From the NCBI GenBank assembly GCA_001783335.1, contig MFLU01000004.1, positions 1 to 40,881 of the forward strand: DNA of 40,881 nucleotides. The letters run 5' to 3'. The position numbers and the translations under genes were made by a program. The notes beneath the pieces are model-generated. The model saw nothing but the letters and a program-made list of their open reading frames with translations, was not told the DNA's origin and did not search any database. Every line of letters starts with the position of its first letter. Within the stretch, counting starts at the first letter, position 1. Shown here piece after piece: positions 18,211 through 32,023 of the stretch. The DNA comes from Candidatus Kaiserbacteria bacterium RIFCSPLOWO2_01_FULL_50_24 (GTDB taxonomy: Bacteria > Patescibacteriota > Minisyncoccia > Phycocordibacterales > UBA2100).

Positions 18211-19713
18211 TTAATTCTTGCGTGGAAACAGATTGTCGGGTTTTTTGTTTTCCAATATGGTCTTCTTTATTTTCTCGCTCGTGTCAGGCATAAATGGATT
18301 CAGTATGCGGCCTATGCCATACAACTCCTCCGTCATTTCCGTGATAAGTGCCTTCCCCTTCTCCGGCTCCGACTTCACAAGTCTGAACGGCTCCGTTTTG
18401 GTTATTTTCTGATCAAGCGCTTGTATTCGCTCCCACACGTACTGCATAGCGCGATTGAAGTCGTACGCCTCCAATGCATCCGTATACTCTTTTGTGAATC
18501 CCTGCGGCTCTGGTCGTTGTATCAGTTCAGACAAATTGTCTTCCGCGAGTTTCATAATGCGCGCAACTAAATTTCCCAGCCCGTTCACCAGGTCGGCATT
18601 GTACGCTTCTTTAAACCGCTCCATTGTAAAATCGGAGTCCTCAAACGGGTGGATGTGCCGCAATAGAAAGTAGCGAAGCGCGTCTGCGCCGTATTCGTCA
18701 ACTATCAGAAGCGGGTCCACCACGTTACCGAGCGATTTTGACATTTTATGGCCGCCGCTTGTTATAAAACCATGGATGAAAATCTGCTTTGTTGGCGGCA
18801 ACCTCGCCGACATAAGCATCGCCTGCCACATGGCGGCTTGCTGACGGATTTGGTCCTTTCCGGCCACCTGTATAGCATTCGGCGCGTCCTTCGTGCCCCA
18901 GAATTTGGTGAACATATCTTCAGGCTTGCCCTGCGAAGCTTTACTGTGTCCTTCCGTAGCCTTCTTCGAAGGAGGAGCGTAGCAGGGCCATCCGAGTGTT
19001 GAGATGTAGTTGATGAGCGCGTCAAACCACACAAACATAACGTGGTCGGGGTCGCCCGGCACCTCAACGCCCCACGGCATTTTTTCCTTAAGACGCGAGA
19101 TACTAAAGTCCTCAAGACCGCTCTCTATGAACTTTTTTATTTCGTTGAACCTGAAGTCTGGAACGACAAACTCTGGGTTTCTCTCGTACATTTCAAGGAG
19201 TGGCTTTTGATATCTGGAGAATTTGAAAAAATAATTCTCTTCCTCTCTTATTTCTATCTGGAGATTCGGGTGGGTGGGACATGCACCACCCACCAGCTCT
19301 GAATCGGTCTTTTCAAGCTCACAACCGACACAGTATCTCGTCTTGTAGTGCTTCTTCTCAATGTCTCCGCTCACATCGCATCGCTTCCAAAACTCTTGCG
19401 CTGCCAGCTTGTGGTTAGCGTCAGTCGTGCGAATGAAGTGTATGTCGGAGTACAGATTGAGCTTTTCTTTCAATCGGCGAAATTTTTCTGCATACTCGTC
19501 TGCGTACGCCTGCGGTTCTTTCCCCTCTTCAAGCGCTTTTTGATATATCTTCTGTCCGTGCTCGTCGGTCCCCGTATTGAAAAATACCTCATCTCCCTGA
19601 AGCGCGTGATAACGCGCAAGCGCGTCTGCTTGCACAATCTCAAGCGCAAAGCCGACATGCGGGTCGGCATTCACATAAGGAAGAGTGGTGGTGAGAAAAA
19701 ACGCTTTAGACAT
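18211..19713 (-). CDS. metG: Methionyl-tRNA synthetase
   Basis: [40 protein letters not shown]; start at MSKAFFL; contains an [20 protein letters not shown] insert. Confidence 0.96.
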
Positions 19714-19788
19714 GGTGGGTCTCGCTATAGAGTGTATGTTTGAAATTGTTACCGTAAACCAGTGCAACACTGGTTTCTGGCTCCTCGG

Positions 19789-20110
19789 CTCGAAAGTGCA
19801 AAAGAGTACTTTTGCACTTTGCTCGCTCTACGTCGCCAGTAAGCGAGCGCACATAGTGCCCGAGAGAACATCGCGCAGGAAACTCTCAAGCCACTACCAC
19901 ACCTCGCAGTAGCCATACAGAATCCTTTGTTTCTTGCGTCCTGTTCGGTGCGGGCACTATGCAGCGAGCGAAGCCCCCGACACTTACTTTGGCATTGCTT
20001 TCTGTTGTGCCTCACGAGCACATATCCACCTCCGGTAAGGTAGGTTATTCCCGTATAGTTGATAGTATCTCTATGTTCGCGCACAACGATGCCAAAGTAA
20101 GTGTGGGGGC
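19789..20110. repeat. Cluster of three foldback elements upstream of metG
   Basis: AAAGTGCAAAAgagtaCTTTTGCACTTT; CATAGTGCCCG(19852)...CGGGCACTATG(19951-19961); GCCCCCgACACTTACTTTGGCAT...ATGCCAAAGTAAGTGTGGGGGC. Confidence 0.75.
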
Positions 20111-20129
20111 GAAGGCTTTCAAACATACT

Positions 20130-21200
20130 CTAGGATTGCTCTGACGACTCGCCCGGCTTCGGCAACCCAACGCGGCGGTTTTGTATGTCTGTCACAAATT
20201 CCTGGATTGCCGCCGCCATCGGAACGGAGAGAAGAATTCCCAAAAAACCGGCGAGCTTCGCACCTATGATAAGTGCGAGTATCACAAGGAGGGGCGGCAC
20301 GCCGACCACTTTCGTGACGACAAGCGGATAAATCAGGTGGTTCTCAAATTGCTGGATAATCACATAGAATGCGATTACGAGAAGTCCGAGCGTGAGACCG
20401 CCGTCTACAAAACCGATAAGGATTGCGGGAACGGAAGCAAGGATAGGCCCAAAAACAGGAATGAGCTCAAAAAGCGCCGCGAGAACTGCGAGGAGAAGCG
20501 CGTGCGGAATGCCAAGAACGGTGAGTCCGAGATATACCAAAACGCCTATGATAACAGCAAGGAGAATCTGTCCCTGCATCCAGAGTCCTATCTTTTTTTG
20601 CGAACGCCGCCAGAGGTCAAGAACGTACGAGCGGTAATTAGACGGCACGATAATGCGCAAAAAATCGTCCACGCCGGTTTCAACGACGGCAAAGTAAAAC
20701 GAAAACACAATGATGAGCACAAAAGATACGACGCCGCCGAAAACGCCCGAGACGGCCGTAAGCGCATCTCCCGATATGCCAAGGTTCAAACCTTCGCGTA
20801 ATTGCGTAATGATTTCTCCGGGGCTTAACGCGGATGTGGTATAGCCGAGCGCGCGCGTATACTCGTCAAATGCGACTATTCCGTTGAACATTTCCAGATA
20901 TGTGGGGAGTGAGGCCGTAAACTTGGAGACATCCTCTAACACCGACGGGACAAACGAAGAGAAAATCCCTACAACCGCGGCGACGAGAAACAAGTAGATG
21001 AGGACGACGCCTAAAATACGCGGGATTCTGTAGCGCATAAGCATTCGTATCGCCGGCTCAATCGCCGAAGCGATTACGACAGCGGTCAAGACGACGAGCA
21101 CAAGATCGCGCAAGTGGTACAGAAGCCACGCGCCACCAAGGAGCAAGAGCACGCGCAAAACCGTGCCAGTCGTTATGGAAATGTTGAGATTCTGATTCAC
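20130..21200 (-). CDS. AI-2E family transporter (PerM-like membrane protein)
   Basis: 356 aa multi-TM; ELIPVFGPILASVPAILIGFVDGG, QQFENHLIYPLVVTKVVGVPPLLVILALIIGAKLAGFLGILLSVPMAA. Confidence 0.92.
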   Translation of the reverse strand: MNQNLNISITTGTVLRVLLLLGGAWLLYHLRDLVLVVLTAVVIASAIEPAIRMLMRYRIPRILGVVLIYLFLVAAVVGIFSSFVPSVLEDVSKFTASLPTYLEMFNGIVAFDEYTRALGYTTSALSPGEIITQLREGLNLGISGDALTAVSGVFGGVVSFVLIIVFSFYFAVVETGVDDFLRIIVPSNYRSYVLDLWRRSQKKIGLWMQGQILLAVIIGVLVYLGLTVLGIPHALLLAVLAALFELIPVFGPILASVPAILIGFVDGGLTLGLLVIAFYVIIQQFENHLIYPLVVTKVVGVPPLLVILALIIGAKLAGFLGILLSVPMAAAIQEFVTDIQNRRVGLPKPGESSEQS

Positions 21201-21233
21201 GAATTCATCCTACCACAAAGGAGGCGAAAATTA

Positions 21234-22526
21234 TCAGGAGACGAGCTTCGCTATATCGTTTACGCTTACACGCTCCTGTACCCCAGAATCGCGGTCGCGC
21301 ACGGTTACGGTGTCGTCTTCAAGCGTTTGGAAATCAACAGTGATACACACCGGCGTCCCAATCTCATCTTGCCTCCGATACCGTTTGCCGATGTTGCCGT
21401 TGGCGTCAAACTGGACACTGGAAACTTGAAGCTTGAGGCTGGAATAGACCTCGCGCGCCTTGGCAACCAGTTCGGGTTTATTTTTGAGTAGTGGAAACAC
21501 GGCGGCTTTCACGGGCGCGATTTCTTTTTTAAATCGCAGGACAACGCGCTTTTCACCCCCCAATTCGTCCTCATCATATGCGGAGAGAAGAACAGCAAGA
21601 ATCGTGCGTCCATGTCCGAATGTGGGTTCAATAACATGCGGAACAAACGGTTCCTCCGATTCGTCGGCATAGCGAAAGTCCACTCCCGCTTGCTCCATGT
21701 GCCGCTTCAGATCATACTCGCCTCTGTAGGCAAGACCGTATAACTCTTTTTGTCCGAACGGATATTCAAACTCAAAATCGATAGTGCGTTTGGAATAGTG
21801 CGCGCGCTCGCCATTGGGAATTTCCACTTCGTGCACAATCTCCTTCTTGATTCCAACCGCTTCTATCCACGAGTGCATTTCATTCCGCCACATTTCAAAT
21901 GACGCCTCCCACTCTTTTTCACGCACAAAATATTCAAGCTCCATAAGATCAAATTCGCGCGCCCGAAATAGAAAGTCGCGTGGCGCGATTTCGTTCCTAT
22001 ACGCCTTGCCCATTTGTGCTAAACCAAAGGGGAGTTTTGGACGAATGGTATCCAATATGTTCTTAAAGTGAATGAACATTCCTTGCGCAACTTCGCCGCG
22101 CAAATACGCACGCGACGTTTCTCCGGCAACGCTTCCCAACTCCACCGGAATAAGAAGGTTGAATGTTTTCTCGTCGCCAAGCGACCCGCCACATTCGGGG
22201 CATTTTTTGACATCAGGAAGATGGTCTGTGCGAAACCGCCTCTTACACTTAGCGCACTCAACCATGGGGTCCGTAAATCCTTCAAGGTGACCGCTCGAGC
22301 GCCACACGGCCTCCGACATAATGGTGCTTGTAGACACTCCGTACATATCTTCCCGCACGCCAACAAAATGTTTCCACCAGAGTGACTTTATATTGTGCGC
22401 GAGCATCGCGCCATAGGGACCGTAATCCCACGTGCCCGCGAGGCCACCGTAAATCTCGGAGCCCTGAAACACGAAACCGCGCCGTTTGCACAGCGAGACT
22501 ATTTTCTCCATCACATCAGAGCTCAT
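21234..22526 (-). CDS. glyS: Glycyl-tRNA synthetase (alpha2 type)
   Basis: 430 aa; RRGFVFQGSEIYGGLAGTWDYGPYGAMLAHNIKSLWW, GKRYRRQDEIGTPVCITVDFQTLEDDTVTVRDRDS. Confidence 0.96.
   Translation of the reverse strand: MSSDVMEKIVSLCKRRGFVFQGSEIYGGLAGTWDYGPYGAMLAHNIKSLWWKHFVGVREDMYGVSTSTIMSEAVWRSSGHLEGFTDPMVECAKCKRRFRTDHLPDVKKCPECGGSLGDEKTFNLLIPVELGSVAGETSRAYLRGEVAQGMFIHFKNILDTIRPKLPFGLAQMGKAYRNEIAPRDFLFRAREFDLMELEYFVREKEWEASFEMWRNEMHSWIEAVGIKKEIVHEVEIPNGERAHYSKRTIDFEFEYPFGQKELYGLAYRGEYDLKRHMEQAGVDFRYADESEEPFVPHVIEPTFGHGRTILAVLLSAYDEDELGGEKRVVLRFKKEIAPVKAAVFPLLKNKPELVAKAREVYSSLKLQVSSVQFDANGNIGKRYRRQDEIGTPVCITVDFQTLEDDTVTVRDRDSGVQERVSVNDIAKLVS
21410..21446. repeat. 7-bp-period array inside glyS
   Basis: ctggaca|ctggaaa|cttgaag|cttgagg|ctggaat; encodes SSLKLQVSSVQF. 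Confidence 0.65.
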
Positions 22527-22550
22527 ATTCAGTATTTATACCGCATGCAT

Positions 22551-22587
22551 GCTGGATTTTCTAGAAGCTAGAAGCTGGAGGCTATTT
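22551..22587. repeat. 7-bp-period array between glyS and the 653-aa gene
   Basis: ctagaag|ctagaag|ctggagg|ctatttc, reaching the stop codon of the downstream gene. Confidence 0.65.
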
Positions 22588-24543
22588 CACCACCGTCGCA
22601 TTCACCTGCGAAAAGTCCGGGTCGCTTGAAATATTTGTGGTTACATCTCGCGCAGTTTTGGAGATTGTCGCACCCGTTGATACATCAACGCCACGCACAC
22701 TTATATCGCGCAAAAGTATGGGTTGTTGCCCCACCTGGCTCGTGGAGGGCGTGAATCCTATGGAAATGGCCGCCTGGCGCGCTGGCACTCCGCCCACCCC
22801 GACACCTGGCACTATATTCCCCATATTCCACGTAATGACACCGTCAAGCGAGTTAAATGTTATCTGTTCCGACGACGGACTGTAACCCTTGGTCCAACGC
22901 ACATACGCGGGAAGCGTCGCAGTCAGCGTCGCGCCGGAAATAGCATTCGTGGTGTTCGTGACCGTAAACACAACCGCGTACGTCGTTTCTCTTTCAGCCA
23001 CCGGTGGCATGGGACCCGTGGAGCCGAACGGATTCGCGTAGTACACACCCTGTGCAAGCAATGATAGGTCGCTTGCGACCCGTATAGATTGCGTCGCACT
23101 CGCTTGCAAGTTTTCCGGCACGCCGCTTTCAGACAAGCGCTTTCCTGATGCGTTCACCGTTAGTGCGAGCCGCGGATCTTGAATCCTGGATAACGTCTTA
23201 CTATCCGGTACGCGAAACGTGAAGGCAACCTTCCCGCGCGCGCCGGAGGGAATAACACCGAGCGTGCCGTTGGTCGTCGACTTATCCCACAACATTGCGC
23301 TATCGGATGAACGATAGAAGCCATCGAGTGAAATTACCGACGCCCCGTCTATGGGAAACCCGCTCAGGCGCGCGACGATAACGGCGTCGGTTATCTGAGT
23401 AAGTAGATTATTAACATATGTAATTGCGACTGCCACGTTGTCGCCTGGAGATATCACAACGCCGTCCCCAGAATTTCCATTTATAGAGAGTGAAAGCGAG
23501 AGAAATGGGCGGGACACGAACATTCTATGCGTCTCCTCATCCAATGTCGCACTGATTTCGGTGTCACTTGGTTTGGCGCGCGTACCAACGGAAAACCGGA
23601 ACACGCGCTCGTCCCCCGACTCACCGGACAAGACACCGCGCAGAACCATGGTTTTCCTTTCACCAGGTTCGAATGAGCCGAGCTCCCACACTCCCGGACG
23701 CACGGGAAATGGCGTTGCAGAGCTGAACGCAAAGCCAAACGGATATCCGACAGAAAGCAGTACATCTGAAATCGGTGTCGCGGCGTTTGACGTAACCGTT
23801 ATAGTGAGCACGGTATTCTGCCCCGATATCGTTTCGCTATTTCCTTCTATGGAAAGAGAAAGTGGAGAAGAGCTAAAGGTAATCTGATAGTCACTAGACG
23901 CCACAAAAATTGCACTGGACCCTTGCAGGCGATACTCAAGTTCCACTTTTACCACGGCACTCTCTCCTTCTTTGCCCGCAAATACTGCAGACACCGTGCC
24001 CTGCCTTCTGCCCCCAGGCTCTATGAAGCCAAGCGTTTTGCGCTGACTCGGTAACTCTCGAGATACATCAACCGGGGACCTCGTGCCTTTAGGATACGTG
24101 ACAATAAGATCTGCGAGTTCAAGAGACACTTGATTTCTGTTGGTAACTGCGATTTGAAGACCCGCCGGTTCTCCCCCAGAAATATTCAGAGGCCCTGCAA
24201 CACTGATGTCGATATTAAGAGGAGACGCCGGTAGAGAGCCGCCACCAAACGTAAAATAGTATGCAAAAAAACCGGTGGCGCCTAGAAAGAAAAGAACCGA
24301 CGCAAAAAGTACTAAACGCACCAGAGCGCGCGACCAGCCAAGGGTTTTTGGTGCTGCCATAAGCGATACCGCCTTCGGTTCCGGACGCCTCCAATCATTG
24401 CCCACCGATTGGGGGGTATCACTTAAACGCCGACGTTCTTTATCTTTAAGATGTGGTGAGATGGAACGCGAATACATCGCACGTTGAAGTTGTTCTATCT
24501 TTTCGTGTTCGTTATCTGAATCCGGTACCCGTTGTGTTTGCAT
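22582..24543 (-). CDS. Membrane-anchored DUF11/Ig-like repeat protein
   Basis: 653 aa; one N-terminal TM; conserved-repeat-like TVTNTTNAISGATLTATLPAYVRWTKGYSPSSEQITFNSLDGVITWNMGNIVPGVG. Confidence 0.8.
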   Translation of the reverse strand: MQTQRVPDSDNEHEKIEQLQRAMYSRSISPHLKDKERRRLSDTPQSVGNDWRRPEPKAVSLMAAPKTLGWSRALVRLVLFASVLFFLGATGFFAYYFTFGGGSLPASPLNIDISVAGPLNISGGEPAGLQIAVTNRNQVSLELADLIVTYPKGTRSPVDVSRELPSQRKTLGFIEPGGRRQGTVSAVFAGKEGESAVVKVELEYRLQGSSAIFVASSDYQITFSSSPLSLSIEGNSETISGQNTVLTITVTSNAATPISDVLLSVGYPFGFAFSSATPFPVRPGVWELGSFEPGERKTMVLRGVLSGESGDERVFRFSVGTRAKPSDTEISATLDEETHRMFVSRPFLSLSLSINGNSGDGVVISPGDNVAVAITYVNNLLTQITDAVIVARLSGFPIDGASVISLDGFYRSSDSAMLWDKSTTNGTLGVIPSGARGKVAFTFRVPDSKTLSRIQDPRLALTVNASGKRLSESGVPENLQASATQSIRVASDLSLLAQGVYYANPFGSTGPMPPVAERETTYAVVFTVTNTTNAISGATLTATLPAYVRWTKGYSPSSEQITFNSLDGVITWNMGNIVPGVGVGGVPARQAAISIGFTPSTSQVGQQPILLRDISVRGVDVSTGATISKTARDVTTNISSDPDFSQVNATVVK

Positions 24544-24720
24544 AACTATTCATTATACCCCCACACCTTTCCTGACATAGCGGCACCTATGCGTTTCCTC
24601 GAAATGAAAACGGTATTCTCCAATACACTTGAACGATGTGAGAGCATCTATACTCCAGCCACAAGTTGCCCATCTTGGGGGTGGTGAAAAATTAAAAATT
24701 AATGCGCACAATAGAGAGAT

Positions 24721-24784
24721 GATTTTCAGTTTTCAATTTTTAATTGCACTTTTTACTTTTTCATTTTTACTTTTTAATTTATTA
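24721..24784. repeat. T-rich 7-bp-period array abutting the recO stop codon
   Basis: gattttc|agttttc|aattttt|aattgca|cttttta|ctttttc|attttta|cttttta|atttatt. Confidence 0.65.
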
Positions 24785-25345
24785 TAGATGCGAACCTATT
24801 ATCGCTTGGTTGACCGAGATGACCAGCGACTCACGCAGGTGTTCCGCTTCTGTGAGGTGCGGCAACTCGTACGCGGTATGCGTGAAAAGCGCAGTTCGGA
24901 GCGCTTCAGACGACAAGTAGCCAAGTGCGAAGAGCACACGCGCCACGCATATCAACTCAATAGTTGCAACACGCGTGTGAGGAGCAAAAAACTGTGCGTG
25001 CGCGGAAGACAGAGTGGAGAATAAATATTCGTTTTTCTCCTCTCCGGCAACAAGTCGCGTCATCAGTCGTGCGATACGCGCAAATATGTTGACATACTCA
25101 CCCAAAAGAGCACGGACCGACGAGGCGCCCACAAGCTTCCACCCCCGTTTACCGCAAATAAGAGAAACGTTTGCATGTGCGTAGTGCGAAAGCGCGTAGC
25201 GCAAGCGCGAGCGCTCTTCGCGCACCGAGGTGGCGCGCGCATATACAAGGCCGAAATCTTTTGTGTAGAGCATGAACACACGATCAGCTTCGCCATGTTC
25301 CCAACTCCCCAAAACAAGAGCATCTGTAGAATATTTTATGTACAT
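24782..25345 (-). CDS. recO: DNA repair protein RecO (short form)
   Basis: 187 aa; YSTDALVLGSWEHGEADRVFMLYTKDFGLVYARATSVREERSRLRYALSHY. Confidence 0.85.
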   Translation of the reverse strand: MYIKYSTDALVLGSWEHGEADRVFMLYTKDFGLVYARATSVREERSRLRYALSHYAHANVSLICGKRGWKLVGASSVRALLGEYVNIFARIARLMTRLVAGEEKNEYLFSTLSSAHAQFFAPHTRVATIELICVARVLFALGYLSSEALRTALFTHTAYELPHLTEAEHLRESLVISVNQAIIGSHL

Positions 25346-25524
25346 TCAATTAGAAACAACGCGTGTTAGAGCGCATGTTGCGGCATACAGCGTGAGAAGC
25401 CGTACGGTGTGTGTTCGAGTATTCGCGTGTGACACTGAAAAAAGCGCGAGGAGCGCCTTGCGCTACCCTGCATTATGATTACCAGCGACCGCTCTGTTTC
25501 TTGTGCAGACATATAGAGAAACTA

Positions 25525-28500
25525 CTACAAACGTTCTACCGTAACTCCATTAGCATCACCGCGTCTCAACTCAGCCGCACTTGTAGCAACAAGTATTTGT
25601 CTTTCAAATTTAGAAATAACGCGAGCCGTTTCATCGTCGGCGCCATAGGTAACGCATATGGTGTCGCGCGGGTGCATTCCCACCTCCCTCCGCGCTGCTT
25701 GCACAGAGCGAATGAACTCGCGCATTATCCCCTCCTCTTTCAATTCTTGTGTAATGGTCGTATCCAAACGCACCTCTCCTTCTTTGAGCGACGTATCCAC
25801 AACAACCTCTTTCACATTCACCTCATCTCGGATTAATTCGAGCAGTCCTTTTTTTGCTTCCAGCTTCCGGCTTCCAGTTTCCAGTTTCCAGAGTGGTTGT
25901 CTCACTTTTATCCCCGCCTTGTCCCGCGCCTCAAGCGCAAGCGAGACAATTTTCCGAACCTCCGCCATGTCCTTTAGGATAGCTTCTAGCTTCCAGCTTT
26001 CAGCTTTCAGATTAGGCCAACTCGCCAGGTGTACACTTTCCTCGTCTTCACTTTCACGCACTGCTTGAAACAAATGCTCTGCAAAGAACGGCATCGCGGG
26101 CGCCATGACACACGAAAGCGTATAGAGCGCATGGCGAAGAGTCGCGAGCGCGTGTTTCTTATCTTCCGTATCTTCTTTAAAGCGCCCCCTACTTCTTCGC
26201 AGATACCACACCGACAGATCGTCAATAAAATCCGCAAGAGGCCGTACTGCGGCGTCCAACGTGTAGTTCTCGTACCCAACAGTCGTGTCGTGTGTGAGTT
26301 CATTTAGCCGCGAGAGAATCCAGCGATCTAACACATGCTCGCTTTTTCGACCACGCGACACACTGTTGTCGTACAGTTTGTAGAACGCGAGTACGTTATT
26401 GAGCCGCGTGATATTTTTTTTCACTATGTCGTCCACTGCGCGCTCGTCAAAGTTTTTGGAATCGCCGGGTGCGTTCACTGTGTACATAAAGTACCGTAGA
26501 GCATCCGCACCGTACTTAGCGAGCATAGGAGCGGGCTCCACGATATTCCCGAGTGACTTGGACATTTTTTTTCCTTTCGCGTCCAACACATGTCCGAGGC
26601 ATATGACGTTTTTAAATGCGTGGCCTATGTCCATGATGCCACCAACGGCATGAAGTGTGTAAAACCATCCGCGTGTTTGGTCAATCGCTTCGCATATAAA
26701 ATCAGCCGGGTATCCGTGCGTTTTTTTGAGCCAACTGAACCACCCCGACTTACTGGGGCTAACCCTCTCGGTGTTGAATGGATAGTGATCCTCGGCCAAC
26801 GGCATCGCGCCGGAGTCAAACCACACATCAAGCACTTCCGGAACGCGACGATATTCGCGTCCGGTTTCATCCGTAAGTACGATTTCGTCAATATAGGGAC
26901 GGTGAAAATCCGGCTCAAAAGTACCGTTGCGCGGAAGAGGTATAAACGCATACTCCCGAACCTCGCTCATCGCCAAAAAATCATCTTCCAATCCCTCTTC
27001 GTGCATCAGATCACTAAGCGTCCGTGCGTTTGCCACATGCGCCATGAGCCACGCGGGTGTATCGTGCATCACAAATAAAATAGTTTTTCCTGTATATGTT
27101 TTTTCAATCTCCACAAGCGCCTCGCCAACACGACGGCGCACCTCTGTGTAGGTCTCCCCGCCTTCCGGCGCCTTAGAGAATTTTTCCAACGGTGAAGCAT
27201 AGAACTTTCGCCACTCGGCAATCGTTTTGCCGTCATACGCGCCCACCTGCACTTCTTTAAGGCGCTCGTCGGTTATTACTTCGGTGTCGGAAAGGCCGAA
27301 TACTTTTTGTGCAATACGTGCGGTTTCCTGCGTACGCAAGAGCGGAGATGTAAATATGAGATCTATGCTGGCGCGCGCTTTTAGTACCGCGAGGTTTTCC
27401 TCCGCGCTTTTTCTTCCTCTCTCTGTCAGTGTGTTCTCTGGGTCGCCCATGCAGTCAAATGTATCGCCAAGATTTTTTTGCGCTTCGCCGTGGCGCATTA
27501 AGAAGTACCTGTTTCCCGAGGTCTTCGCGCGCGCCACAAGCTCTTCGCGCGAGCCGATAACCATTCTTGAGCCGTCTTTTGCTTCCCAAATGGGAAGCGG
27601 CGTGCCCCAAAAACGCGAACGGCTTATTGCCCAATCTTTGAGTTCACGCAGCCATTCACCAAAACGTCCGTCGCGTATATGCTCCGGCTCCCAGTGAATG
27701 GTTTTGTTTTCACGAATAAGATCGTTCTTTATGCGCGACATCGCGATATACCACGAATCGCGCGCATAGTAGATAACGGGCTTTTTGCATCGCCAGCAAA
27801 ACGGATAGGTGTGATGAATTGTTTCGTGCTTGTACAAAAGTCCGCGACTTTCCAAATCCACGATTATTTCTTTATCCGCGTCCTTCACGAACTTTCCCGC
27901 AAGCGCTCCTACGCCGTCAATAAACGTCCCATCCTCACGTACGAGGTGATGCTTCGGCAATCCGACTTTCGTCCCCAACTCAAAATCGTCCGCACCGTAC
28001 ATAGCCGCCGTGTGGACAATTCCCGTGCCGTCTCCGGTAGAAACAAAATCCGCCACGTATACTTTGTACGCGTTTTTGAGTTTAGGTTTTTCTGATTCCG
28101 GCAACAATTCGGCGAGATACGAAAACAGTGGTTCGTATTCGAGCCCGACCAAGTCGTTCCCCAGAAACTCCGACTTGGGAGTTGAACTCCCAAGTACGTT
28201 GGCTCGCTCCTTCGCAATGATGAGGTATCCCAAATCCGTCCGAACGCTCACGTATGTAACATTCGCCCTCACTGCAAGCGCAACGTTCCCTGGTAATGTC
28301 CACGGCGTCGTCGTCCATGCGAGCAAAAATACATCTCCAGATAAACCGATTTTCTCGGAATTTTTGATTTTAAACTTCACATAAACGGAAGGGTCGGACA
28401 CGTCGTCCTCGTATCCCTGCGCCACTTCGTGCGAAGAAAGAGCGGTTTCGCACCGAGGACACCACGGCACCACCTTGTAGTCCTTATAGAGAAGCTCGCG

Positions 28501-28998
28501 TTTTTCTGCGTGTTTTAAAATCGCCCATACCGATTCTATGTAGTCGTTATCAAACGTGAAGTAGGTGTCGTCGTGGTCCACCCAAAAGCCGATGCGTTCA
28601 GTGAATTGTTTCCATTCATCTATATACCTAAGAACGCTCTCCTTGCACTTTTTATTGAACTTCGCGATGCCGTACGCCTCAATATCTTTTTTACTTTTAA
28701 AACCAAGCTCTTTTTCCACTTCAAGCTCTACGGGAAGTCCGTGCGTGTCCCAGCCGGCCTTGCGACGCACATGATAGCCCTGCATCGTGCGAAAACGCGG
28801 AATCGCATCCTTGAACGCGCGCGTTTCCAAATGGTGAATACCGGGCCTGCCGTTTGCTGTCGGCGGACCTTCGTAGAAAATAAATTCGCCCTTCAGCGAT
28901 GGCTTCGTGAGCGTTTTCTTGAAAATGTCCTTCTTGCGCCAAAATTCAAGTATTGACTCTTCGCGCTTGGCGACTTCCGATTTCTCAATATCAGCCAT
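25525..28998 (-). CDS. ileS: Isoleucyl-tRNA synthetase with inserted histidine phosphatase domain
   Basis: 1157 aa; [37 protein letters not shown]; insertion NRYFLMRHGEAQKN...SPLLRTQETA...FVMHDTPAW at about residues 495-695. Confidence 0.95.
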   Translation of the reverse strand: MADIEKSEVAKREESILEFWRKKDIFKKTLTKPSLKGEFIFYEGPPTANGRPGIHHLETRAFKDAIPRFRTMQGYHVRRKAGWDTHGLPVELEVEKELGFKSKKDIEAYGIAKFNKKCKESVLRYIDEWKQFTERIGFWVDHDDTYFTFDNDYIESVWAILKHAEKRELLYKDYKVVPWCPRCETALSSHEVAQGYEDDVSDPSVYVKFKIKNSEKIGLSGDVFLLAWTTTPWTLPGNVALAVRANVTYVSVRTDLGYLIIAKERANVLGSSTPKSEFLGNDLVGLEYEPLFSYLAELLPESEKPKLKNAYKVYVADFVSTGDGTGIVHTAAMYGADDFELGTKVGLPKHHLVREDGTFIDGVGALAGKFVKDADKEIIVDLESRGLLYKHETIHHTYPFCWRCKKPVIYYARDSWYIAMSRIKNDLIRENKTIHWEPEHIRDGRFGEWLRELKDWAISRSRFWGTPLPIWEAKDGSRMVIGSREELVARAKTSGNRYFLMRHGEAQKNLGDTFDCMGDPENTLTERGRKSAEENLAVLKARASIDLIFTSPLLRTQETARIAQKVFGLSDTEVITDERLKEVQVGAYDGKTIAEWRKFYASPLEKFSKAPEGGETYTEVRRRVGEALVEIEKTYTGKTILFVMHDTPAWLMAHVANARTLSDLMHEEGLEDDFLAMSEVREYAFIPLPRNGTFEPDFHRPYIDEIVLTDETGREYRRVPEVLDVWFDSGAMPLAEDHYPFNTERVSPSKSGWFSWLKKTHGYPADFICEAIDQTRGWFYTLHAVGGIMDIGHAFKNVICLGHVLDAKGKKMSKSLGNIVEPAPMLAKYGADALRYFMYTVNAPGDSKNFDERAVDDIVKKNITRLNNVLAFYKLYDNSVSRGRKSEHVLDRWILSRLNELTHDTTVGYENYTLDAAVRPLADFIDDLSVWYLRRSRGRFKEDTEDKKHALATLRHALYTLSCVMAPAMPFFAEHLFQAVRESEDEESVHLASWPNLKAESWKLEAILKDMAEVRKIVSLALEARDKAGIKVRQPLWKLETGSRKLEAKKGLLELIRDEVNVKEVVVDTSLKEGEVRLDTTITQELKEEGIMREFIRSVQAARREVGMHPRDTICVTYGADDETARVISKFERQILVATSAAELRRGDANGVTVERL
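25855..25893. repeat. 7-bp-period array inside ileS (1)
   Basis: ccagctt|ccggctt|ccagttt|ccagttt|ccagagt; encodes LWKLETGSRKLEA. Confidence 0.8.
25980..26012. repeat. 7-bp-period array inside ileS (2)
   Basis: ctagctt|ccagctt|tcagctt|tcagatt; encodes NLKAESWKLEA. Confidence 0.75.
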
Positions 28999-29089
28999 GC
29001 ACTATATCGTAGCAAAAAAGCGCCTCATTCACATGTTCGACTCGCTAGATACGAAAGCAACGTGGATATATTCGGATTTTTCCCTACTT

Positions 29090-29449
29090 TCACTTCTTAT
29101 ACTTTTTTAACAACTGACTCAGCAACGCCAGGAGTGGAACTCGCCAATCGTGTTCGAGTTGAGAACGCACGAGGTTCATTAATATTTTATCCTGTTCCGA
29201 GAGCTTTTTCTTCTCTAACTCGTAAATTATGTTGAGGATTTCCAAGTCCGTATCGGTTGATAGTATGTACTTCTTTTTGTCCGCTGGTTTTACCACCGCA
29301 CTCCGTGTCAGTTTTCTTCTGCGGGCCTGTAAAATTGCGAGGTACTCTTTATCATTTTGTGTTGCCTTTCGAAGCGCCCCTCCCCTCAAACCTTGCTGAT
29401 AATAAAAATCCTCTATTGCTTGTAGAGACCGCTTCTTCTTGTGTGCCAT
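29090..29449 (-). CDS. Hypothetical protein
   Basis: 119 aa, highly charged, Lys-rich. Confidence 0.6.
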   Translation of the reverse strand: MAHKKKRSLQAIEDFYYQQGLRGGALRKATQNDKEYLAILQARRRKLTRSAVVKPADKKKYILSTDTDLEILNIIYELEKKKLSEQDKILMNLVRSQLEHDWRVPLLALLSQLLKKYKK

Positions 29450-29536
29450 GGGGTTAGATTATATTCTTTCCGGTGTCGGAATATAGGGCTATTATACAAC
29501 AAGTTGTACAACAAAATGTACAAAAAAGAAAAACAA

Positions 29537-29574
29537 GCCCCCTACAACAATTCCATGGAATTGTTGTAGGGGGC
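29537..29574. repeat. 38-bp perfect palindrome
   Basis: GCCCCCTACAACAATTCCATGGAATTGTTGTAGGGGGC, no loop. Confidence 0.9.
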
Positions 29575-29596
29575 GTTCGCAAAAAGGCCGCCCACA

Positions 29597-30352
29597 TCAT
29601 TCTGGCCGCTTGTTTTTTCTATTCGCCTCGTCCATCGTCCTTATAAGCTCTTCCGCCATCGGCTTCCTTCCGTCCTTTTCCGCCTGTCGCATGAGTACGC
29701 ACACAGGACAGCCGTCATCGAGGTGGCCGGTGCCACCAATCACATGGGCCATGCCGCCTTCAAGCTCATCAACCGACACTTCCGTGTCAGCCATTTCCGG
29801 AGCTACTATTTCTTGGAATACGAGTCGGGGGTCGAGCACGGGGAATGCATTTTGCATTCGTGCAAGGTCGCGCGCGGAAGGGTTTGGCATCCCGAGAGTG
29901 TCTAGCGAGACAATGCGCCATGCGCCGCCCATTCTCGCCAATCTAGTGACGACAATATCGCCTAGATTAATAGACGTTTCCGGTTTTTCTTCGATACGAA
30001 ACCGATCGCCGCTTCGTACGCTATCAGCATCAAAATATTTTCTGTGGAGCTTTTTTACTTGAAAAAAATCAAAACGATTGTGCGCTGCGATTTCGTCCAA
30101 TAAGGCAAGCTCCTCTTCTCCGAGGCTGTGCGGATTCAGTCCGCGGTATCGAATAAGCGGTATCTGGCCATCGGTAAAACGAAAGTCAAACAAAAACCAA
30201 TCAGCAAAATACGGCGATGCGTGTGGCGGCATAGGAGCGGTTGGCTCTCCCATAAACTCCGCCATGGCCCGGATGACTTCCGTACCGAACATCCACGCCC
30301 GTTCAGGATTGAGATAGTGTTCAATGATGCGCTCGATAAGTGCTCGCTCCAT
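29597..30352 (-). CDS. Hypothetical protein with CPVC motif
   Basis: 251 aa; ...IGGTGHLDDGCPVCVLMRQAEKDG. Confidence 0.7.
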   Translation of the reverse strand: MERALIERIIEHYLNPERAWMFGTEVIRAMAEFMGEPTAPMPPHASPYFADWFLFDFRFTDGQIPLIRYRGLNPHSLGEEELALLDEIAAHNRFDFFQVKKLHRKYFDADSVRSGDRFRIEEKPETSINLGDIVVTRLARMGGAWRIVSLDTLGMPNPSARDLARMQNAFPVLDPRLVFQEIVAPEMADTEVSVDELEGGMAHVIGGTGHLDDGCPVCVLMRQAEKDGRKPMAEELIRTMDEANRKNKRPE

Positions 30353-30358
30353 AAGTAG

Positions 30359-32023
30359 TTACATCTTATCCGGTGATGGAATCCCCAAAAGCCACAATCC
30401 GTTTTTGAGTGTCGCGCGCACGGCATCAGTCAGCGCCACCTTGTGCGGCGCTTCCGGAGAACCATCCACTATCTGCTCGTTGGCGTACCATCGGTTGAAC
30501 GCGCCAGCGAGTGTGAGAATGTATGTGGTCACATGGCGCGACTCGCGCTCGCGCGCGGCTCGCTCCACAACTTCCGGAAAGCGGTGCAGTAAGCGTGCGA
30601 GCTCCTGCGGCTCTGCGTTTTCGTTCACCTTCGCCTCAACACCTTCCGCTTTCGCCTTTTCCACAACAGCACACGCCCGCGCATGCGCGTATTGCAGATA
30701 CGGCCCCGAATCGCCCTCAAGTGAGAGCGCCTGCTCTCGATTGAAAATAATGTCTTTCCTCGCCTGCTGTTTCAACACCTGATACTTCACCGCCGCGACA
30801 GCGACCTGTTCTGCGAGCGTATCCGTATCCTCCGCGCGGCTTTCTTTCGCGCGCGAACGCGCGACTTCCGTGAGTTCGGCAAGTAAAGACTCACCAGTGA
30901 CGACATTCCCCTTTCGCGACGACATCTTTCCCTCTGCAAACCGCATCATGCCGTGAGATACATGCTCAAACTGCCCCTGCCATTCGGGATGCACAAGCTC
31001 TAGTGCTTTTAGCACAACGGAAAAGTAGTCGTTCTGCTCGCTCGCGGTAACAGTGATAGATGTATCAAACGGTGCTTTTTCTTTTTTTGCCTCGGCAAGC
31101 CCGAGGTCTTTTGCCTCGTACGTCGGAAGTCCCTGCGACGTGATGAATACGCGCGTATGGAGTCCGAACTTCTCGCCACGAAACACCGTGGCGCCTTCGC
31201 TGTCATCAAATACTTCCGGGTGAGCACGCACCAGTGTAACGCCGAGCGGTCCCGTCTCGCTTTCAAAAAAATAGTGGTCAAACTTTGTACCGAGCGTTTT
31301 ATAGAGCGTCTCAAAATGTTCGAGCGACTCCGCGCGCCCATCTTTGTATAGAGTGTTTATTTTCTCGTCGCTTTTCTCATACACCAGTTTATTCACCGCA
31401 CCAATTGCTTCTTTGTTGCTTTCATACTGCTCACTGCCGTATACATACGCCTCTCCCCAGCTCGCCTCCGTTTTTTGTAATTTTCCCCAAATCGTTTTTG
31501 CAACATGGAGTCCCACATCGCCCTGATAATTCGCACGCAAAACGTTCGTGCCGGAAAACTCCAAAAGACGCGCGAGCGATTCGCCGATTGCGTTACTCAT
31601 TAAATGCCCTATATGAAATTCTTTGAACGGGTTCGGGTCAGTGTACTCCACCATTATCTTTTTCCCACCGTTTATCTTGTTCGCACCCCATTTTTCCTCG
31701 GCATTATCGGCACGCGCTCTTTCTATTGAATCAGCAAGTGCCTGCGGCAAAAGAAAAAAGTTTATGAATCCAGCGCCCGCGACCTCTATCTTTTCGACGC
31801 CGTCTATGGCACCTAGACCCGCAACAACTTTTTCCGCGAGTTCGCGCGGTGACATGCCAGCCCCCTTTGCATACTTCAGCGCGACACCTGTTGCATAGTC
31901 GCCGTGCGCAAAATCAGCAGTATGCTCAAGCGGCACGTCTTCTTTAGTAAGAGAAACGCCCACCCTACCCAGCGCGGAAGAGAGCGCGTTTCGTATTGCG
32001 TCCCGAACATCCATACAGACCAT
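30359..32023 (-). CDS. argS: Arginyl-tRNA synthetase
   Basis: 554 aa; VEYTDPNPFKEFHIGHLMSNAIGESLARLLEFSGTNVLRANYQGDVG; GKMSSRKGNVVT. Confidence 0.96.
   Translation of the reverse strand: MVCMDVRDAIRNALSSALGRVGVSLTKEDVPLEHTADFAHGDYATGVALKYAKGAGMSPRELAEKVVAGLGAIDGVEKIEVAGAGFINFFLLPQALADSIERARADNAEEKWGANKINGGKKIMVEYTDPNPFKEFHIGHLMSNAIGESLARLLEFSGTNVLRANYQGDVGLHVAKTIWGKLQKTEASWGEAYVYGSEQYESNKEAIGAVNKLVYEKSDEKINTLYKDGRAESLEHFETLYKTLGTKFDHYFFESETGPLGVTLVRAHPEVFDDSEGATVFRGEKFGLHTRVFITSQGLPTYEAKDLGLAEAKKEKAPFDTSITVTASEQNDYFSVVLKALELVHPEWQGQFEHVSHGMMRFAEGKMSSRKGNVVTGESLLAELTEVARSRAKESRAEDTDTLAEQVAVAAVKYQVLKQQARKDIIFNREQALSLEGDSGPYLQYAHARACAVVEKAKAEGVEAKVNENAEPQELARLLHRFPEVVERAARERESRHVTTYILTLAGAFNRWYANEQIVDGSPEAPHKVALTDAVRATLKNGLWLLGIPSPDKM

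Follow-up and report, generated by a model that had tools for sequence, protein, structure and literature searches.

The stretch of DNA analysed here (40,881 nucleotides, hereafter the window) carries on its minus strand, at 25525-28998, an ileS gene encoding a type-2-like isoleucyl-tRNA synthetase (IleS) with a phosphatase nested inside it, in one unbroken frame of 1157 aa. The product scores 867 bits against the NCBIfam equivalog profile TIGR00392 (cut-off 621.4), and Pfam assigns DUF5915 as its C-terminal domain. A preliminary description of this DNA held that both class I signatures remain. This holds without reservation for KMSKS (26554-26568, minus strand; residues 811-815), which is intact; the first signature is present in altered form, as GIHH (28831-28842, minus strand; residues 53-56), a swapped version (GXHH) of the HXGH/HIGH motif. 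GXHH occurs in some type 2 enzymes (IleRS2) and is linked to mupirocin hyper-resistance (PMC10485003). Several relatives share GIHH, both with and without the phosphatase. A tie between the insert and GXHH was considered and rejected: no link is seen, since either motif type is found with and without the phosphatase among the rows whose motif could be read (all but 17). The full-length AF2 model (pLDDT 90.2, pTM 0.83) resembles Priestia megaterium IleRS2 (8c8v) best among PDB folds, with Thermus thermophilus IleRS (1ile) also among the top matches. A search of the window genome (848,802 bases, 99.6% complete) gave no second ileS; the fused protein must therefore charge tRNA-Ile. Further synthetase genes lie around it within 18211-32023 (argS, 30359-32023; a class II gene of G/H/P/S/T type, 21234-22526; metG, 18211-19770), and a recO-like gene is found nearby at 24782-25345.

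With its linkers, the histidine phosphatase (HP) insert occupies 26905-27516 on the minus strand (residues 495-698), and its PF00300 core 27016-27504 on the same strand (residues 499-660; 112.8 bits against a cut-off of 21.7, E=2.1e-32). PF00133 is split in two by this core, as the preliminary description had expected of an HP domain lying in frame within a single ileS reading frame. The insert is preceded by the GTPLPIW side of the synthetase, SRSRFWGTPLPIW...VIGSREEL, and followed by DFHRPYIDEI...VLDVWFDSG. In yeast IleRS, the counterpart ARDWNVSRNRYWG forms the CP2-CP3 linker and CP3 comes next (PMC7955072), so the host segment of the insert is CP3. The proposed fold is likewise borne out by prediction: modelled alone with AF2 (pLDDT 92.1, pTM 0.89), the insert is predicted to adopt the alpha/beta HP fold, for which Foldseek returns PspA 4ij6 at the top (E=1e-14) and also PhoE 1h2e and Rv2419c. 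A sequence-profile match to PhoE 1ebb reaches E=7e-38. The insert is thus confirmed as a complete domain of HP superfamily branch 1 inside ileS. Its GC content (0.507) equals that of the rest of the gene (0.502), which argues against a recent foreign arrival. One separate, distant PF00300 gene is found on another contig of the window genome, and a PADLOC search for known defence proteins gave no match to the protein. Binding of RNA or tRNA through basic charge finds no support, since the insert is acidic (pI 5.3); the median pI of first IleS copies overall is 6.3.

HP enzymes work in two steps: a phosphohistidine forms on the first His and is then hydrolysed. The residues needed for this, which the preliminary description had recognised as a possible sign of competence, are all present and conserved in alignments (all on the minus strand): R502 and H503 of the RHG motif (27490-27495), H503 being the expected phosphohistidine nucleophile; the catalytic R555 in SPLLRTQET (27334-27336); the acidic E582 in LKEVQVG (27253-27255), the expected general acid/base; and H645 in FVMHD (27064-27066), the second catalytic His. 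All five are kept in 106 of the 109 inserted domains checked; two of the exceptions carry an E-to-D change, and the third domain is cut by Ns. In an alignment of 44 diverse inserts, mean column identity is 33%, and nine columns are invariant, among them R, H, R, E and H. Where two HP domains stand in tandem, both copies retain the catalytic residues. On this pattern of sequence conservation, the active site is under strong purifying selection and the inserted HP is probably catalytically competent.

The fused form is widespread, the point on which the preliminary description had called for a survey of related IleS proteins. A junction-region profile detects it in 54 of 83 genomes of the class. 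Among 40 relatives searched, many genomes of the same order have their PF00300 match inside a reading frame about 1100-1250 aa long, and IleS alignments place these inserts at the identical site. In a phylum-wide sample, ileS is matched in 111 of 145 genomes, and at least 19 IleS frames contain HP, a lower bound that covers frames of about 1090 aa or longer; nine come from the class (all of those checked there) and ten from outside it. Among the GTDB-scan matches listed, the named carriers are Nomura-, Yanofsky-, Giovannoni-, Jorgensen-, Peregrini- and Peribacteria as well as other Patescibacteria; about 50 of the loci kept lack HP, many of these belonging to other phyla. The only carrier outside Patescibacteria among the matches listed is a contig (L123) of a 'Spirochaetia' metagenome-assembled genome, which is likely misbinned because its IleS is nearest to Patescibacteria IleS.

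That the insert could be an artefact of assembly, a chimera or mis-joined contig, had been named as the way in which the description might fail. The same insertion recurs with an identical junction in dozens of independently assembled genomes, and it is therefore not a chimera; the matching GC content of insert and host points the same way, and nothing was found in favour of a mis-join. We regard this explanation as having a negligible chance of being right.

The HP domain has been captured more than once, a recurrence that, like the wide distribution and the split form described below, lay outside the preliminary description. IleS proteins of one family (f98, Peregrinibacteria/Peribacteria-type by its named loci L144, L146 and L148) mostly bear two HP domains in tandem; one protein (L053) has a copy ahead of KMSKS and another behind it, and another (L069) has three copies at three sites. 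Valyl-tRNA synthetase (ValS) is a host as well (L003, L004, L043, L044, L048, L067, L073, L207, L212, L214, and L213 with two copies). The ValS site is mostly equivalent to that in IleS, between GHRIPVWY and DTWFSS, and lies just past DTWFSS in L067. In a tree of the HP domains, which rests on a short domain and has moderate support values, most first IleS copies cluster together, while the tandem second copies and most ValS copies join stand-alone HPs from other lineages. The hypothesis that all IleS inserts share one origin was tried and rejected, their placement in one clade failing the AU test (p=2e-7). Insertion thus happened repeatedly, since second copies in tandem, copies at further sites and those in ValS stem from different HP lineages.

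Gain and loss are also seen close to the window. In a host tree of 80 IleS proteins with the HP domains removed, HP presence requires at least seven changes. The sister group of the window IleS consists of four insert-free proteins from its own genus (G001, G002, G006, G008), and all of these lie within an HP-bearing clade. These four are 60-75% identical to the window IleS on both sides of the site (in the N-terminal half, up to 75%). In G006 the two IleS segments that flank the site abut in the DNA, and neither G001 nor G008 has a PF00300 match anywhere in its genome. The HP domain is therefore dispensable, given such close relatives. Clean loss in these four genomes is the simplest reading; alternatively, the window lineage may have gained the domain.

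A split form is found beside the fused one. In five genomes (L079 of G020, L152 of UBA4067, L201, L202 and L203), an HP gene lies directly upstream of an insert-free ileS on the same strand, the two frames overlapping or sitting a few bases apart, the spacing that translational coupling would lead one to expect. The HP tree places the L079 phosphatase inside a clade of IleS inserts and the L152 one close to other inserts. Genes that are fused in one chain in some organisms and adjacent in others are classic evidence of functional linkage. Selection has preserved the pair in both arrangements, the single chain and the two genes with coupled translation, and on this evidence the phosphatase and synthetase activities appear to have a functional link, whether in cis or in trans. 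In G020, a HAD-family gene (L079:4871-5536) is also found upstream of the HP-ileS pair.

The explanation we favour, with somewhat more confidence than doubt, is that the insert is a competent branch 1 phosphomonoesterase (PhoE/PspA/CobC-like) nested in CP3 of the sole, type-2-like IleRS and functionally tied to that enzyme (in some lineages to ValRS), its most likely substrate class being a small nucleotide-like phosphate ester. The domain, its site, its conservation, its recurrence and the split form are read directly from the DNA, and the fold is predicted; from these we infer the activity, the link to charging and the substrate. H503 would accept the substrate phosphate as phosphohistidine, R502, R555 and H645 would hold the phosphate, E582 would serve as acid/base, and water would then free the phosphate from H503. 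The ester is probably met at the synthetase, because the Ile and Val enzymes have recruited HP repeatedly and also retain it in a coupled gene next door; removing the ester might protect or tune aminoacylation. This suggests a previously unrecognised phosphate-removing step tied to tRNA charging. The targets suggested in the preliminary description, namely an aminoacylation by-product, an alarmone, or phosphates on tRNA or protein, may likewise apply.

The main rival to this explanation holds that the domain is a generic, broad PhoE-like metabolite phosphatase that has lodged where large class Ia synthetases have a permissive loop at their surface. Nesting would then bring co-expression or a more compact genome, and nothing would tie the phosphatase biochemically to charging. 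This rival is a serious possibility, and we consider it clearly the less probable of the two. Insertion at the loop could be opportunistic, which counts against the favoured explanation: the CP3 site accepts other inserts too (L095-L097, L220), related HPs are joined to other proteins (a SerA-like dehydrogenase in L070/L071, an MFS protein in L058), and close relatives are cleanly free of the domain. However, HP is a recurrent choice, drawn from several HP lineages and made by both IleS and ValS; among the long-frame matches listed, no aminoacyl-tRNA synthetase other than these two hosts it. A mere passenger would also have no need to stay directly upstream of ileS once split off, yet it does so in all five genomes with that arrangement.

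Two further explanations give the domain other work. Replacement of a metabolic enzyme (inorganic pyrophosphatase, phosphoglycerate mutase or phosphoserine phosphatase) is brought to mind by the nearest solved relatives, which include the PspA phosphoserine phosphatase and phosphoglycerate mutases, and by the window genome itself, which has no match to PF01676 (iPGM-type metalloenzyme). The insert, however, scores below the equivalog cut-offs of the corresponding families (58.6 of 350 bits for PspA NF045917, 64.3 of 162.9 for CobC TIGR03162 and 65.3 of 225 for archaeal dPGM NF038349). PF00719 pyrophosphatase is present in all six fused genomes of the genus (the window genome and five others). 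PF01676 is present in the fused genomes G007, G026, G028, G030, G032 and G035 and absent from the HP-less G001 and G008, and no convincing SerA-type 2-hydroxyacid dehydrogenase was found in the window genome (best partial match E=7e-6) or in the fused G024, G026, G027, G032, G033 and G037. These patterns of co-occurrence make replacement of any of the three enzymes very unlikely. A non-catalytic structural or regulatory expansion that uses the HP fold as a mere scaffold would accord with the general knowledge that inserted synthetase domains can be scaffolds; against this, the 44-insert alignment is most strongly conserved at the catalytic residues, which both copies of tandem pairs keep, and we rate the idea as improbable, if a little less so than metabolic replacement.

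In the predicted fold and in all catalytic residues, the insert agrees with characterised branch 1 families (PhoE/YhfR 1ebb and 1h2e, PspA 4ij5/4ij6, CobC); it differs from them in being nested in an aminoacyl-tRNA synthetase, besides scoring below their equivalog cut-offs. Type 2 IleRS, represented by the P. megaterium enzyme, is the closest full-length fold to the predicted model and shares DUF5915 and GXHH with the window IleS, whereas the latter has about 200 extra CP3 residues bearing an enzyme. By its name, the NCBIfam model NF040702 (ileS_w_GNAT) offers a precedent for an additional catalytic domain in IleS, an N-acetyltransferase; the window protein instead carries a phosphatase, has no GNAT domain in Pfam and scores 326 bits where the model demands 1999. 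HP is also joined to other enzymes in other hosts, as in the bifunctional RNase H/acid phosphatase (NF005567, whose cut-off the window protein does not reach) and the archaeal Sat-HP fusion (PMC11237513). A literature search, mostly of sources outside subscription journals, found no earlier description of HP within IleS; what is new here is the recurrent combination of a known domain with a known host.

Insertions in synthetases are usually taken to serve editing, tRNA binding or scaffolding. In the present case, the Ile and Val synthetases of a major bacterial radiation, the Patescibacteria/CPR, whose members are tiny and mostly uncultured, have taken up a complete second class of enzyme on several occasions and at several sites, and this enzyme also occurs as a neighbouring gene. 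The idea that phosphate removal is coupled to tRNA charging can thereby be tested directly. Annotators should also bear in mind that an HP match in a Patescibacteria genome may lie within a synthetase.

Other inserts and fusions accompany these. One ValS (L043, 2127-5957) has three foreign enzyme regions, HAD-like at about residues 229-342, RBBP9-like serine hydrolase at about 631-772 and HP at 819-1002; a second (L048) has RBBP9-like serine hydrolase and HP regions. The HAD-like and RBBP9-like regions hint at a wider clearing role. Together, the modules inserted in the IleRS and ValRS of Patescibacteria might act as a built-in layer of clearing or detoxification at the synthetase. They would break down inhibitors of phosphorylated or aminoacyl-nucleotide type, or misformed products, and so add to CP1 editing a second chemistry of quality control; this broader idea is speculative and, in our judgement, rather unlikely. 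At the equivalent CP3 site, other inserts of about 100-150 aa are found in three IleS of family f48 (L095, L096, L097) and in one ValS (L220, from G166). Where HP is C-terminal on a SerA-type dehydrogenase (L070, L071), it is probably a phosphoserine phosphatase; in L058 it is C-terminal on an MFS transporter.
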